Below are positions 19,854 through 28,464 of a stretch of 38,767 nt of DNA, piece after piece. This DNA is from a virus: positions 1-38,767 of the IMG/VR virus record IMGVR_UViG_3300042376_000610; one strand, written 5' to 3'. The translations under genes were made by a program, and so were the position numbers. The notes under the pieces are model-generated. The model made no database searches. It was not told the DNA's origin and saw only the letters and a list, made by a program, of their open reading frames with translations. Position 1 is the stretch's first letter; each line of letters opens with the position of its first letter.

Positions 19854-19889
19854 TTATCTTTTCCTATGTTGAGTGTTTATGTTCAGTTA

Positions 19890-21044
19890 TCAGATAGTGC
19901 CGTCATCTTGCACAAAGCTGTAAGCAGTGGTCACGAAGTCCTTGTTCAGGATCTCGAAACCAGCGTACAGTTGCCAAATCAGGATGATAAAGCGGCTGAA
20001 GTCATCGTTGTTGTTGATGAGCACCTGAGCGTTAGGACCGCCGATACCAACACCAACAGACTGAGGACCGAAGAAGTAACCTTGGGCCACTTCACGGGAT
20101 GCATAGGTGGAGCCACCATCGAAGGAAGCAGACACGTTCTTGGTCGGGAAGTTGGTCGACTCGAAGAACTTGACGCCTTCAAACTGCACACCAGTCGGCA
20201 TCACGGGTTCACCAGCCAGGAAGTAGCCCTGACCAGCTTGGGGACCCATGTAGAAGCTGGCGTTGTTAGGCATCATGGGGTTACCCATGTACATGCCTTG
20301 GCCAGGATTGCCGCTGTAACGAGCAATCTCACGGAAGTCTGGGTCACGACGCAGGTGCATCATGAAGGTGGGATCGCAGATGCAGCGATACAGACCATCA
20401 GCGAAGGTAGGAGTATTGCGCTTACGCAGGTCCTTAACAACGGTCAGAAGGTCGGTACGCACCTGGAACTGCTGCACCTCATTACCATACTCAGTGGAGG
20501 TGTAAGAAACACGACCCTGAGAATCTTTGGTCTTACCACCAGCGAAATAGTAACCGCCTTGGGTGGTGGAAGCAGCGCCATTGGCTTCTGCTTTGGCAAG
20601 TTCGTCAATGAAGACGCGGTCACGCCAACGGCGATAGTCGTCGAGCAGCGTCAGGCTACCGATCGACTGGTGGAACATGTTGAGGTTACCGGTGTCCAGC
20701 AGAAGACGCTGGGCGGTAATCAGAGTTTCACGCGCAATCTTGAAGGTCGAAGGCTGGGTCGGATCACCCGGGTCGGCAGGACCAGTGTATTCCTTAAGCA
20801 CCACCAGGACTTTCTCCTTGGTGATGTTACGGCTGTTAGCGGTACCGATCGTTTGGTCGGCAATACGCTCACGGCTGTCCTTCGTACCAGGGGTACCCCA
20901 GAACTTATAGCGGTCTAACTGAACGGTTTGACCGGGCTGACGGGTGAAGTCATGGACCACCACGGGCTCCACTGCCATTTCAGCAATGTAAGCAGGGTGA
21001 GGACGGTAAAGTTCCGCACCCAGAATCTTTGGAAAGTCGTTCTC
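19890..21044 (-). CDS. Major capsid protein, exon 2
   Basis: 384 codons of a 388-residue product (exon 1, at 21919-21930, supplies four). The first in-frame ATG lies at 20978, but the sequence before it (DFPKILGAELYRPHPAYIAE) is clearly protein, open back to a stop at 21061-21063 and has no start codon, which led to the intron. The mature part has PVVVHDFTRQPGQTVQLDRY, KFWGTPGT, RNITKEKVLVVLKEYTGP and a C-terminal region of capsid type, matching cyanophage major capsid proteins from memory. With a G as last intron base, exon 2 starts at GAG (21044) or AAC (21041); both keep frame. Size, position beside portal and decoration genes and HK97-type length support the call. Confidence 0.85.
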   Translation of the reverse strand, partial: ENDFPKILGAELYRPHPAYIAEMAVEPVVVHDFTRQPGQTVQLDRYKFWGTPGTKDSRERIADQTIGTANSRNITKEKVLVVLKEYTGPADPGDPTQPSTFKIARETLITAQRLLLDTGNLNMFHQSIGSLTLLDDYRRWRDRVFIDELAKAEANGAASTTQGGYYFAGGKTKDSQGRVSYTSTEYGNEVQQFQVRTDLLTVVKDLRKRNTPTFADGLYRCICDPTFMMHLRRDPDFREIARYSGNPGQGMYMGNPMMPNNASFYMGPQAGQGYFLAGEPVMPTGVQFEGVKFFESTNFPTKNVSASFDGGSTYASREVAQGYFFGPQSVGVGIGGPNAQVLINNNDDFSRFIILIWQLYAGFEILNKDFVTTAYSFVQDDGTI

Positions 21045-21266
21045 CTGGTCTCTAGTTTCTTAGAGGGGTGGACTATCTCTTCATCCCTGTGGGATGCCGG
21101 ACGCTAAATCTGGTATTACGTAACAAGAGCGTGTTACACCCAGTAGTCTCTGCACCTTCCAATCACGACTTGATTGGCTTGGCTCAGGATTACCCTCGTC
21201 TTTACGTTAGGGCTTCCCTGAATTCATCCGGTTTGCACCCATCGATTGCTCGGTGGGGTGACAACG

Positions 21267-21295
21267 TTGAGCGTTCAGTTGAGGCATGCTATGCT
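21267..21295 (+). promoter_or_regulatory. Candidate promoter of the intron HNH gene
   Basis: TTGAGC (21267-21272), 17-nt spacer, TATGCT (21290-21295) on the plus strand. Start of transcription would be near 21302, just before the ATG at 21310, giving an almost leaderless message. The element is inside the intron but antisense to it. Confidence 0.45.
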
Positions 21296-21309
21296 TTGGA
21301 AAGCTGTTT

Positions 21310-21864
21310 ATGAACAACATGGATCCAAAACTTGTTCCTGGATTTGGTAACCTTTACTTAACGGAAGAGGGAAAAGCTTTTGAAAAACAACTTGATCCCG
21401 ATAATCAAGAATATTTTCAAGAGATTCCCATTCGTTCAACCAGTGTTTACGACCGCATTTCAGTTCTTGTAGATGGGAAGAGAAAACGTTTTCATCTTCA
21501 TGTCTTGATGGCGGTTGCTTTCTTAGGATTAGATCTTCGTTCACATGGAACTAGTAACTTTTCCTTACAAGTTGATCACAAAGATAATGACAAGAGGAAT
21601 AATCGACTTGACAATCTAGAGATCGTTACCAAACAAGAGAACTTAACAAGAGCCTGGAAGAGCGGTTGTTATAAAAACAATGGCTTTGCCAGTAAAGGAG
21701 CACCGAAGAAATCTTTGAGAAAATTTTCTTCGGAGGATGTGGCTCAGATTAAAGCTTTAAAAGAAGCGGGACTTTCTTATCGAAAGATTGCTGAAAAGTT
21801 TAGCTGTAACCACGGAGCTATTTACCAAATCTTGAAGGGCTATACCTACCAGGATCTGAACTAG
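21310..21864 (+). CDS. HNH homing endonuclease, antisense within the intron
   Basis: 184 residues from the ATG at 21310 (GGAAAG about 6 nt upstream; the frame extends eight codons to 21286, and an ATG at 21319 is another option). Residues 60-110 hold the phage HNH pattern: HLHVLMAVAFLG, QVDHKDNDKRNNRLDNLEIV (D89-H90, N98), TKQEN. The C-terminus (about 147-175, IKALKEAGLSYRKIAEKFSC) is a helix-turn-helix of the type used for DNA recognition by intron-encoded nucleases. It probably cuts intronless capsid alleles so that repair copies the intron. It is transcribed opposite to the intron and capsid gene, unlike most intron-borne nucleases, and needs its own promoter. Confidence 0.9.
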   Translation: MNNMDPKLVPGFGNLYLTEEGKAFEKQLDPDNQEYFQEIPIRSTSVYDRISVLVDGKRKRFHLHVLMAVAFLGLDLRSHGTSNFSLQVDHKDNDKRNNRLDNLEIVTKQENLTRAWKSGCYKNNGFASKGAPKKSLRKFSSEDVAQIKALKEAGLSYRKIAEKFSCNHGAIYQILKGYTYQDLN

Positions 21865-21918
21865 CTATCAATAAACACCTTGGTTTATCCTCCAGTGTCG
21901 ATGTTTTTATCGGGTGAA

Positions 21919-22613: not shown

Positions 22614-23579
22614 TCACTCCATCACAAACAGTTTGTTGGCAACAACTTGAGGCTGAGCTTGGTTCAGAAGGCGCCAGGCTTGCGCAGGATCTACATCCAT
22701 TTGCTGCTTGAAGGAACCCCAGAAGTTTTCAGGCTGTTGGGGAGCGGAGGCTGCAGGAGGTGCAGGGAATTGACCCAGGGCTTGGTAAGCAGATGTGGTG
22801 GGATAACCACGGGTCTCCAGTTGAGCCTCATCTTCGTACACAGGGTACGGACCTTCGGGACCGAAGAACTTCAGCGTGTAATCGCTCAGTACATCGGGGT
22901 TGGTCAGGATCTCGTTGTAAGCCAGATTCTCTTGGTGCTCAGCAACAGAGAAGTTGGCATAACGCTGCAGGACATCTTGGGCCTTGCTGCCCCAGGCAAC
23001 AGCGCTATCCAGCATCCCTTCCAGTTGAAGGGCGTAGTTATTTAGGATTGCGGGTGCTTCTACCCCGTACGCGTCTACCACGTGGCGCGTTTCCGGACTC
23101 CACTGGAGCAGATCCGCCACGTCCGCCAAGGATTGAACCGAGTAGGTTTGGGAAGAGTTGGGCGAGGAGATCTGGTTGGGTGACCAGGTCTGCTGAGCCG
23201 ATTGTTGCGTAGCTGGGTTGCTGTACTGCTGGCCGTAATTGGCTGGAGCGTATTGAGTCGTCGGAGACGATTGACCCTGGAACGGGGATTGAACTGGTGC
23301 GCTCAGCAGATTCACCACCTTGTTGAACGCCGACTCCCATGGGTTGCTGCTCGGAGCTTCCGGTTGGGATTGGGGGGCGTACTGCGTAGGGGCTGATTGG
23401 TAATTGGGGGCCACCTGAGGCACCGCTTGGGGGTAACTGGTACCCACTTGATACGCCACTGGAGCCGGGCTCTGTGCCACCTGGTAATTGACCGGGGCTG
23501 GAGCCACGTAGCTGCTTGGAGCCACCGCTGCCGGGACTTGGCTCGTCTGTGGGATCGATTGGACGGTAGCGTCCTGCAT
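22614..23579 (-). CDS. Scaffold-like Pro/Gln-rich assembly protein
   Basis: 321 residues. The first 150 are Pro/Gln/Ala/Ser/Tyr-rich and probably disordered (SQVPAAVAPSSYVAPAPVNY); the rest is helical and acidic (LADVADLLQWSPETRHVVDA, LEGMLDSAVAWGSKAQDVLQ), ending in FVME. Location between portal and capsid genes and the disordered/helical build fit a scaffolding protein, by analogy. AAGGAGA lies 7 nt before the ATG, a strong signal inside the portal frame. The first 542 nt overlap the portal 3' end in another frame, with both frames open. Confidence 0.7.
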   Translation of the reverse strand: MQDATVQSIPQTSQVPAAVAPSSYVAPAPVNYQVAQSPAPVAYQVGTSYPQAVPQVAPNYQSAPTQYAPQSQPEAPSSNPWESAFNKVVNLLSAPVQSPFQGQSSPTTQYAPANYGQQYSNPATQQSAQQTWSPNQISSPNSSQTYSVQSLADVADLLQWSPETRHVVDAYGVEAPAILNNYALQLEGMLDSAVAWGSKAQDVLQRYANFSVAEHQENLAYNEILTNPDVLSDYTLKFFGPEGPYPVYEDEAQLETRGYPTTSAYQALGQFPAPPAASAPQQPENFWGSFKQQMDVDPAQAWRLLNQAQPQVVANKLFVME

Positions 23580-25326
23580 AACTCATCTCCTTTTGTAGAG
23601 CTTCTAAGGTTCGATACAGATATGGAGTTAAATCCAATCTTGGATCCGCAGCCATCGGAAGATCCGGTGCTTGCGGGTGAGGAGTCTGCATCATGCCCCC
23701 CACTAAGCGAGCGAATTGAGAGTATGCACCCTGTAATTCGTTCACCATCCTGAATGGGAACCCAGATAACATCTCGGCCCTTTCCTCATCCGTCTTAGAC
23801 GGGAAGAGGTATTTCAGTGCTTCAATGCTATCAACACCTAACTCCTGAAGGTTGCGTACCACGATGGAGTTGTTAAGGATGTCCTGTGTGGAATCCTCGT
23901 AAACAGGTCCCAACCAACGCCACAAAACAGTGACGTCACCATCTGGAATCAAACCAATGACATTGGGCGGAATCTGTTGCGCTTCCACGCAAGCCATCAT
24001 AAGGCTCTTGAGTTGCTCATTGTATTGTTTCTCTGCTGCTTCATAACCAGCTTCGTCCTCTGGTGAAGCATCTGGCGGTAGATCTACAGGCTTTTCAAGT
24101 CCTGCTGCAGATGCAAGTGTCGCTTTAAATAATTGCTCTTCTTGATAAATAATCAATTCAAAACAACGACACAAACCATGTGTATAAATAGCATTTGCTT
24201 TTTTCTTTGATGTTGCAGCAACACGTCCAAACAATGATTTGTACTCAGTTGCTGTCACACCAGCAGAAATTGATAGTTCGTCTACACCACCAAGGGCAGT
24301 GCGAATCTCTTCTCGATACTGACGAGCAAATGCGTTTTGGTCACCAGTGATTGCATCTGGGACGATATAGCCAACACGATCGTTTGGTTCCAGGTTTGCG
24401 ATGACGCGTGGAACGCGGATCTGACCATCAACACCACGGCTGACAGGATCCGCCTTAAACATCGACCGACTCATCGGTGATGGGCTAGTAAAGCCAGAGT
24501 TTGCAGCAATGGACGGACGCTGGACAATAGCATCTCCCCCTGCCTCCATGAGGTCAGTTTTGGGACGAGACGACAACAGCGTTGGGTTACCGAAGAAGGT
24601 GATATTCTTCCGCATCGTACGCATCATTTCGTCATGCGTACAAATATGATTGGCTAGTGCATCAAATTCACCAGTGCCCTCAGAAGAAAAGCCCTGGGGA
24701 TTATTGATAATCTCAACGCACGGGATAAAGCCAAGACTATTTTTAAACGTTTTGGTATGACCGGTCAGTGCATAGGTCGGCATCTCAAACGACATCTCGG
24801 AATCCGAGTGCGTCTCTTCAATCTCTCTGGGCTTGATTGAAAGCCTGATGTAACGCTTTGCACCAGGACTGCCAGTGCTCAAGCCACCTGTCAGCGATGT
24901 GGTTGCAAGCTGATCACCAAAGCCATTAGCCTTGCGAACCTTATAACTGTAGATGATTACAACTTCGTCAAGCTCACCGTCAACGTTGTAGTACGCACGA
25001 TACTCATGTTCGCGGAAATAATAGAGACGATAGTTTTGTTTTGTAGGGCGGATGTAGAAAAGACCTTTGCCATCACACAGGAAATACTCCCAGATCGAAT
25101 CCAGGCGTGTGTCAAGTTTGTTGTACTTGGCTACACGATCGATAAAGTCTTTGCGCTGGTTGCCAAAGTTATCTTGGGACGGGAAGAATTCAACCCCTTG
25201 GCGAATGCCAAAGAGTTTCATCTGTGCGATATGAGACGCAACAACGCCAGTGTCTACAACAACGTCACTATCTTTGTCGAGATAGGCATTGATGATTTCT
25301 TGAAGCCTGGCTTTAGCGTCTGCCAT
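23038..25326 (-). CDS. Portal protein
   Basis: 762 residues. It is the ring through which DNA enters the head. Family-like features: N-terminal HIAQMKLFGIRQGVEFFPSQ, WEYFLCDGKGLFYIRP and the core segment with AFARQYREEIRTALGGVDEL, ISAGVTATEYKSLFGRVAAT. Beyond about residue 580 the sequence turns into a Gly/Ser/Pro/Gln-rich tail (SPGSGGSKQLRGSSPGQLPG) with an Arg-rich end (RGRRVRGRSTRNPK). That tail is the part overlapping the scaffold-like gene. Large terminase, capsid and scaffold genes are near, supporting the call. If the tail frame is not translated as such, the functional portal would end near residue 585. Confidence 0.85.
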   Translation of the reverse strand: MADAKARLQEIINAYLDKDSDVVVDTGVVASHIAQMKLFGIRQGVEFFPSQDNFGNQRKDFIDRVAKYNKLDTRLDSIWEYFLCDGKGLFYIRPTKQNYRLYYFREHEYRAYYNVDGELDEVVIIYSYKVRKANGFGDQLATTSLTGGLSTGSPGAKRYIRLSIKPREIEETHSDSEMSFEMPTYALTGHTKTFKNSLGFIPCVEIINNPQGFSSEGTGEFDALANHICTHDEMMRTMRKNITFFGNPTLLSSRPKTDLMEAGGDAIVQRPSIAANSGFTSPSPMSRSMFKADPVSRGVDGQIRVPRVIANLEPNDRVGYIVPDAITGDQNAFARQYREEIRTALGGVDELSISAGVTATEYKSLFGRVAATSKKKANAIYTHGLCRCFELIIYQEEQLFKATLASAAGLEKPVDLPPDASPEDEAGYEAAEKQYNEQLKSLMMACVEAQQIPPNVIGLIPDGDVTVLWRWLGPVYEDSTQDILNNSIVVRNLQELGVDSIEALKYLFPSKTDEERAEMLSGFPFRMVNELQGAYSQFARLVGGMMQTPHPQAPDLPMAADPRLDLTPYLYRTLEALQKEMSYAGRYRPIDPTDEPSPGSGGSKQLRGSSPGQLPGGTEPGSSGVSSGYQLPPSGASGGPQLPISPYAVRPPIPTGSSEQQPMGVGVQQGGESAERTSSIPVPGSIVSDDSIRSSQLRPAVQQPSYATIGSADLVTQPDLLAQLFPNLLGSILGGRGGSAPVESGNAPRGRRVRGRSTRNPK

Positions 25327-26937: not shown

Positions 26938-28464
26938 TTAGTAATCAAGCTGAAGTTGCCCCTTACGCATCAATCCGGTCAACAGGTAAACCAAGGCGTC
27001 AACGCAGTCGTCATGACTGCTGACACCAAAGTTAGTCAACTCTTCAAACATAGCTGTGAAGTTACGAAAACGATTAAAGATAATCTTGCGATCCTCAAAC
27101 ATGCCCATGCAACCACGGAAACGTGCCAGCTTATCGGCGCGGAATCCTTTGACGGCATGCCAGTTCAAGTTGTACAAGCTTTCGTTGGTGAGGCATACAC
27201 GTTTGAAGTCAGCCTCTAGAGATGCCTGGTACGCAACCGCTTCACTCCAGATGTCACACGTGGAATAAGTCGGGAAGTAATGGCCGCCTTCATCTTTGCC
27301 GAGGATTGACCAATCATTTAGCAACTCCTTGAGGGCATCCAGTTTTTCTAGGTTGCCCATGACGCGTAGACGCCTGTAATCAATGATGTGAATCTGATCG
27401 CCAATGCGGCCACCAAGAACCATAACAGTGTAATCATTTTTTTCTTTTGTGCCAACCGAAAGATCAACCCCAATCCCAAGAGCATCAAACTCTGTTGCAA
27501 TCTCCGCCTTAACAATCAGCTCTGGCGCCAACGACAACTCGTTTTGCCTGATGACTTGATTCATGTACTGGAACGAGAAAGCAATTGGAGCTTGTCGTTT
27601 CTTTTCCTTCAAGTAATCCAAGGACCACATCGATGGCCAGTACGACATTTCATCCCCTGTTTTGGGATCATTGATAATTGCGGAAAGAACAATTTGCAAC
27701 CAATTGTTTTGTGGGTTGAAGGTCGTGGCATGAATGTCATCATGTCTAAAGCGCGTACCAAGGCAGATCGCCCGGCCCCCTTCAAACATGGTGGGTGCAA
27801 TCACAGCATTCCAGTTGTCCTGCATCTGTTTCCGGATGTCAGGGTTGGAAATATCTGCAGCAGATTTAATGGCGTCATCGATGATGACCAGATGGGAACG
27901 CTTGGAGGTCACCGAGCCCTTGAGACCTGCAGCGCAAAGTGTAAATTGTTCCTCACCAGTGGTATCAATGCCTGCAAATTTATGGTCAATGGACCAGTAC
28001 TCATTACTGGTGACGTTCTTTAGAAGGCGTACGGTTGGGAAAACTTCTTGGTATCGCTTGCTTTCAATGATGCGTTTAATGGTTGCTGATTTGGAACGCG
28101 CAATATCGACTGTGTACGACAAATACAGGATCTGCAGCGGTAACTTGGCTGCCGTATGAACACCAATGGCCCAAGCGGTAAACAAACCTAAGACTGTTGA
28201 TTTAGCAGAACCACGGGGTGCCAGGAGATCAACGTTTGGTCCTGCAATCTTTCGCAAGCAGCTACTGTCTTCGTTGGTGACAAAGTGACGATGCCATTCT
28301 TTGTGGTGGTCAGCCGGAGGTTTATCTGCTACGTACTCACAAAAAAATCCAAAATCTTCCCTTGCTTTCTCCAGGGATTCAAGATTTCGTGGGATTCGAA
28401 TTTGTTGCCTGCGAGCAGCCGCTTGTGCGTTACGGCGGTATGCAAGATGTTGATACGCAGGCAC
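26938..28464 (-). CDS. terL: Terminase large subunit
   Basis: 508 residues. It is the ATP-driven motor and nuclease that packages DNA. Walker A APRGSAKST (82-90), Walker B HLVIIDDAI (191-199), coupling motif LGTRFR (235-240). The C-terminal RNase H-like nuclease has IGVDLS (D334), an acidic residue near TCDIWSEAV (E408 or D404) and DDCVDALVYLL (D486, D489). Start is GTG at 28464; the only upstream alternatives in frame are non-standard. Portal, probable scaffold and capsid follow in the same direction, as usual. Confidence 0.93.
   Translation of the reverse strand: MPAYQHLAYRRNAQAAARRQQIRIPRNLESLEKAREDFGFFCEYVADKPPADHHKEWHRHFVTNEDSSCLRKIAGPNVDLLAPRGSAKSTVLGLFTAWAIGVHTAAKLPLQILYLSYTVDIARSKSATIKRIIESKRYQEVFPTVRLLKNVTSNEYWSIDHKFAGIDTTGEEQFTLCAAGLKGSVTSKRSHLVIIDDAIKSAADISNPDIRKQMQDNWNAVIAPTMFEGGRAICLGTRFRHDDIHATTFNPQNNWLQIVLSAIINDPKTGDEMSYWPSMWSLDYLKEKKRQAPIAFSFQYMNQVIRQNELSLAPELIVKAEIATEFDALGIGVDLSVGTKEKNDYTVMVLGGRIGDQIHIIDYRRLRVMGNLEKLDALKELLNDWSILGKDEGGHYFPTYSTCDIWSEAVAYQASLEADFKRVCLTNESLYNLNWHAVKGFRADKLARFRGCMGMFEDRKIIFNRFRNFTAMFEELTNFGVSSHDDCVDALVYLLTGLMRKGQLQLDY

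Follow-up and report, generated by a model that had tools for sequence, protein, structure and literature searches.

Known overlapping gene pairs of phages include lambda Rz/Rz1, phiX174 A/B and D/E, and lambda C/Nu3, and a long out-of-frame overlap in the annotation of a large dsDNA phage is often an error. Comparison of these pairs with the locus described here, in which a portal gene and the gene of a probable scaffolding protein (ORF321) overlap in two frames, revealed that (i) Rz/Rz1, A/B, and D/E are likewise same-strand, out-of-frame double-coding pairs with an internal start, but one gene is embedded in the other, whereas the two long genes here overlap by their predicted disordered ends and both encode proteins probably involved in head assembly of a tailed dsDNA phage; (ii) in lambda C/Nu3, the scaffold gene likewise has a ribosome site of its own and begins within the head gene that precedes it, but Nu3 lies in the frame of C and shares its protein sequence, whereas the frames differ here and no protein sequence is shared; and (iii) dsDNA viruses commonly have same-strand overlaps in the +1 relation, with a median length of 14 nt (IQR 8–26) in one survey (PMC8903798), whereas the overlap here measures 506–644 nt among relatives, with selection shown on both frames.

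Among annotated phages, only Synechococcus phage S-EIV1 (KJ410740) is related to the locus when the portal, ORF321, or the head protein is compared. Its genome contains a full ORF321 homologue of 325 aa (reading frame 59287–60264) with the same Shine-Dalgarno sequence and ATG, and the overlap is 554 nt including the stop codon. In the S-EIV1 record, the portal is annotated with its tail (57537–59840), but the second gene begins at an ATG inside its reading frame (59863) and is thus reduced to the last 133 of its 325 codons; because only these codons are annotated, the overlap is undescribed in the record. A literature search, outside which the original S-EIV1 paper lay, found no description of a portal/scaffold overlap.

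Lineage and gene order of the window

The window, that is, the whole stretch of DNA analysed, is a 38.8-kb virus record that affiliates with the widespread cyanophage lineage of S-EIV1 (identity 74.5% for the portal, 69% for ORF321, 84% for the terminase large subunit, and 87% for the head protein). In IMG/VR, the lineage is represented by at least several hundred contigs. A Lake Lanier bacterial MAG (isolate LLD_282; L227, RFNU01000069.1) also carries a contig of the lineage, which is more likely phage DNA binned together with the bacterial genome than a prophage. The gene order on the minus strand of the window is terminase large subunit (TerL), small ORFs, portal, ORF321, ORF210, and head protein, and the major head protein (MCP) gene of the relatives lies 0.2–1.7 kb downstream of ORF321. 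The main features are as follows:

26938–28464, minus strand, TerL (phrog_38, E = 2.1e-75; Pfam Terminase_6C)
23038–25326, minus strand, portal protein gene, 762 codons (core residues 1–583; C-terminal tail residues 584–762)
22614–23579, minus strand, ORF321, 321 aa, with its ATG at 23579 inside the portal gene
23038–23579, minus strand, overlap of 542 nt, very probably dual-coding, ORF321 being in the +1 frame relative to the portal
19890–20978, minus strand, MCP (phrog_1357, E = 2.5e-17), with a group I intron in its 5' part

The intron (RF00028, 90 bits, core 21049–21291; about 821 nt, 21045–21865, minus strand) appears to split the MCP gene near the fifth codon. Inside the intron, on the opposite strand, lies an HNH endonuclease-like ORF (21286–21864, plus strand). 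The intron-free (empty) site, ...GTGTTCATTGATAAC^GACTTTCC..., was found in 166 of the loci compared. In the S-EIV1 record, the head protein gene is annotated by its C-terminal part only, and an antisense CDS (KJ410740 60784–61545, corresponding to window 19866–20918, plus strand) is annotated over the N-terminal part. Only 28 of the 150 relatives compared lack stops in the codon-aligned antisense frame, and this antisense CDS therefore looks spurious.

The internal start of ORF321

ORF calls confirmed the 542-nt overlap at 23038–23579, in two frames, that had been proposed in an earlier note made from the DNA sequence of the window. The strong ribosome site that the same note had placed before the ATG was also recovered, with AAAAGGAG reading from 23594 to 23587 and kept in relatives. 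Two short features define the start region:

23587–23594, minus strand, Shine-Dalgarno sequence AAAAGGAG of ORF321, 7 nt before the ATG
23583–23585, minus strand, TGA in the ORF321 frame, two codons upstream of the ATG

The ATG was present in all 399 loci, which comprise 228 distinct site sequences, and the motif AAAAGGAGATGAG was present in 228 of the 228 distinct relatives among the loci found. The positions of the start and the Shine-Dalgarno sequence were identical in all 228, down to 74% core identity, so that the inner gene has its own translation start in the form of an invariant AAAAGGAG–7 nt–ATG. The TGA was invariant in 121 of 121 sequences and lies within the upstream motif common to the 228. 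Portal codons 578–586 had zero synonymous changes in 121 sequences, whereas most upstream codons vary freely.

Synonymous change was also depressed in one stretch of the portal core:

23580–23841, minus strand, portal-core stretch of 262 nt before the ORF321 start with depressed synonymous change

From codon 496 on, the portal synonymous rate fell from about 0.40 to about 0.1. The stretch contains a near-invariant 23-mer, TTAGGTGTTGATAGCATTGAAGC, and had an RNA fold z score of −2.4. A third gene in this stretch was rejected on the basis of conserved stops in all other frames, and no promoter-like match above chance was found in it.

The portal and the putative scaffold

The 762-aa ORF matched phrog_20475 (head and packaging; virion structural protein) with an E value of 2.4e-275 and, weakly, the portal family phrog_64. 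Its AlphaFold model, built from a shallow alignment and of low confidence (pLDDT 41), gave 18 Foldseek matches in the PDB with E < 1e-3, all of which were portals or portal/tail complexes holding one (top match E = 1.2e-6), the portals of T7 and cyanophage P-SCSP1u being among them. The gene is located between the terminase and head genes. The ORF is the portal, an identity backed by its predicted fold. The C-terminal tail is disordered in the model.

In the AF2 model of ORF321 (pLDDT 50.7 overall), residues 1–150 are mostly disordered, and a linker separates the central helices from a C-terminal helical unit:

23301–23345, minus strand, ORF321 residues 79–93 (NPWESAFNKVVNLLS), conserved helix within the disordered N-terminus (helix predicted at 80–93, low pLDDT)
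22863–23129, minus strand, ORF321 residues 151–239, central helical region including a helix of about 52 residues (pLDDT about 68–88)
22623–22724, minus strand, ORF321 residues 286–319, C-terminal helical unit (pLDDT 45–70)

The rate of portal-synonymous change (SN) in the segment of residues 79–93 was 0.009. Residues F286, W287, F290, W302, R303, K316, and L317 of the C-terminal unit are invariant, and this unit could possibly be a coat-binding domain. Scaffolding proteins of the P22, T7, and lambda types usually have disordered parts, long helices, and a C-terminal helical unit. ORF321 is located between the portal and MCP genes, the position of a scaffold gene. Judged from this position and from its disordered-then-helical architecture, ORF321 is probably the head scaffolding protein.

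Searches of ORF321 against Pfam and PHROG returned only a marginal match to the unnamed phrog_11467, the PDB contained neither a sequence match nor a fold match, and no homologue of known function was found by sequence or fold search. Because it has no such homologue, ORF321 is placed in no named scaffold family. Scaffolds diverge fast, and absent homology leaves a scaffold role possible. The position of the second gene fits the description "scaffold-like" given to it earlier, the architecture predicted by the low-confidence model resembles that of a scaffold, and a sequence homologue of any scaffold was not found. The missing match to a known scaffold would also suit a reading in which the double coding is true and ORF321 is a different head-morphogenesis or virion protein, such as an internal, decoration, or assembly protein. 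We regard this as a minority possibility, against which stand the portal–MCP position, the succession of disordered N-terminus, long central helix, and C-terminal helical unit seen in many scaffolds, and the fact that the distant TerL-related phages Mae-Yong1326-1 and ctsTn925 have, at the corresponding position, a protein that is first Ala/Pro-rich and then looks helical.

Both frames are open in all complete relatives

Relatives were collected in six scans of viral contigs from different lineage starting points and one scan of genome contigs, with the best 80 loci taken from each. The earlier observation that both frames lack stops held in the window and in all 183 complete distinct copies (those not cut by a contig end); an early portal-frame stop occurred in none of these copies, and every one of them had a stop in the third sense frame. 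The overlap length was always 2 mod 3; therefore, every indel was a multiple of three and both frames were kept. No relative without the overlap was found among the best 80 loci of each scan, all of which ended at about 74% core identity, so that these lists may have left out more divergent forms. The TerL-linked distant phages Mae-Yong1326-1, HTVC023P, and ctsTn925 (22–25% identity) have no such overlap, and no homology of their proteins to the portal or ORF321 of the window was detectable.

The open portal frame is not due to chance. With the ORF321 protein fixed, 6.5–10.4 stops were expected in the portal frame when synonymous codons were resampled and 1.9–4.5 when the gene's own codons were permuted, and 0 were observed; the probability of an open portal frame per sequence was 0 (resampled) or 0.002–0.12 (permuted). 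With the portal fixed, 1.7–3.6 (resampled) or 2.9–6.4 (permuted) stops were expected in the ORF321 frame, and again 0 were observed.

Purifying selection acts on both frames

A codon-position substitution analysis with related genomes, as the earlier note had suggested, was performed as an OLGenie-style test on 60 disjoint pairs of relatives, in which sites were classed as non-synonymous or synonymous in each frame; the intervals are bootstraps over these disjoint pairs, and the test is not fully tree-based. In the overlap, the portal frame gave dNN/dSN of 0.64 (0.58–0.71) and dNS/dSS of 0.33 (0.27–0.40), which is not the purely neutral substitution that would have spoken against coding, and the ORF321 frame gave dNN/dNS of 0.36 (0.31–0.41) and dSN/dSS of 0.18 (0.15–0.23). 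The sham controls were approximately neutral: a +1 frame in the portal core gave dNN/dNS of 1.01 (0.94–1.08), and a portal frame in the single-coding C-terminus of ORF321 gave dNN/dSN of 1.97 and dNS/dSS of 1.13 (0.93–1.43). The result was unchanged with only the 34 pairs below 10% divergence. The SN rate drops 5-fold in the overlap, from 0.365 to 0.074. Purifying selection thus acts on both frames across nearly all of the overlap, and sub-regions of portal codons 586–735, for which selection was found in both frames, had dNN/dSN of 0.25–0.75 and dNS/dSS of 0.20–0.31.

The Gly/Ser/Pro-rich character ascribed earlier to the portal tail is present in residues 584–762 (16% G, 16% S, and 14% P), and so is the Arg-rich end, which closes with RGRRVRGRSTRNPK. 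Three segments of the tail differ in their constraint:

23347–23406, minus strand, portal tail residues 641–660 (QLPISPYAVRPPIPTG...), strong portal-frame constraint
23146–23226, minus strand, portal tail residues 701–727 (VQQPSYATIGSADLVTQPDLLAQLFPN), tightest motif of the tail, ORF321 frame relaxed
23041–23121, minus strand, portal residues 736–762, Arg-rich end, positive charge kept

At residues 641–660, the NS rate was 0.081, compared with 0.30 in the single-coding C-terminus of ORF321. Portal codons 701–735 (QPSYATIGSADLVxQPxLLAQLFPN) had dNN/dSN of 0.25 (0.21–0.29), and the ORF321 frame is looser opposite these codons than over codons 586–700. By contrast, codons 736–762 showed no significant amino-acid constraint (dNN/dSN 1.43; dNS/dSS 0.70, 0.44–1.40). 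Selection on the portal tail is therefore borne out for codons 586–735 and not for the last 27 or so, which include the Arg-rich end. The last 35 portal residues have a net charge of +6.7 (5–9), compared with +3.8 ± 2.2 expected as a by-product of ORF321. Because no sequence constraint is shown and the charge is above expectation, the Arg-rich end is, on the comparison of these sequences, kept as charge and not as sequence.

The tail is of low complexity, is disordered in the shallow-alignment model, and is unconstrained in its last 27 codons, as would be expected if ORF321 alone coded in the overlap and the portal effectively ended near residue 585–600, its tail being a stop-free accident. 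This is highly improbable: none of the 183 copies has an earlier portal stop, the ratios for codons 586–735 lie far from the sham values of 1.97 and 1.13, and residues R650, P651, P652, G664, G666, Q668, Q669, P718, and Q723–P726 of the tail are invariant.

The converse, in which the portal alone codes through the overlap, the second gene starts near the portal end at Met193, and the open frame upstream is accidental, agrees with the S-EIV1 record, where a 133-aa CDS (59863–60264) avoids the overlap, and with a start-like codon 133 codons from the ORF end in 174 of 218 relatives. It is disfavoured, and we consider it extremely unlikely, in view of (i) the strong purifying selection on the ORF321 frame in the overlap, with dNN/dNS of 0.36 against 1.01 in the sham; (ii) the invariant Shine-Dalgarno sequence and ATG of ORF321; (iii) the absence of the 2.9–6.4 stops expected with permuted portal codons; and (iv) the location of Met193 inside a conserved helix, with GGAAGGG directly against it and without usable spacing. 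A portal–ORF321 fusion made by ribosomal frameshifting rather than internal initiation is just as improbable: the two frames adjoin with a +1 offset, and ribosomes that changed frame within the overlap would make an uninterrupted fusion, but the invariant TGA before the ATG excludes a fusion by shifts upstream of the ATG, inspection by eye found no conserved slippery site, and a near-perfect Shine-Dalgarno sequence and ATG are invariant.

A model for the shared region and its significance

The locus is very probably a real dual-coding overlap with two starts on one mRNA, the second product being probably a scaffold. Initiation at the portal start would give the complete portal of 762 aa, and initiation at the internal AAAAGGAG...ATG (23579) would give ORF321 in the +1 frame, presumably in larger amounts, as many scaffold copies are needed per head. 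From the sequence data, we infer that both products are translated, that ORF321 serves as a scaffold, and how the amounts of the two compare; linked expression of the two head proteins is likewise plausible. The shared DNA would encode the disordered C-terminal tail of the portal together with the disordered N-terminus of ORF321, the regions in which each protein would be most tolerant of the limits imposed by double coding. The constraint seems to be partly divided along the overlap, with more freedom for ORF321 opposite the most tightly kept portal motif, QPSYATIGSADLVxQPxLLAQLFP. Codon usage, considered for which frame is older, gave −0.03 for the portal frame and −0.20 for the ORF321 frame, with −0.02 and −0.12 for the single-frame shams.

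Once both ends had acquired conserved motifs, either gene would have lost something by moving away, and this alone may suffice to explain why the overlap persists. A more speculative and rather doubtful explanation is that the overlap is kept for a physical or dosage coupling of portal and scaffold, in which the portal tail (PSYATIGSADL..LLAQLFP and the basic end) would bind the scaffold N-terminus in portal-vertex nucleation, and the two genes would evolve as one unit that neither could leave, fixed across a globally spread lineage.

The overlap is fixed in all 228 distinct sequences found and joins two probable head-assembly genes, and space is not obviously short in the 79-kb genome of the isolate S-EIV1. 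It provides a natural data set for two proteins sharing one sequence and suggests that disordered termini can host such sharing. The second gene is shortened in the annotation of S-EIV1, the only isolate, and our reading predicts that the S-EIV1 lineage would use a previously unnoticed scaffold.
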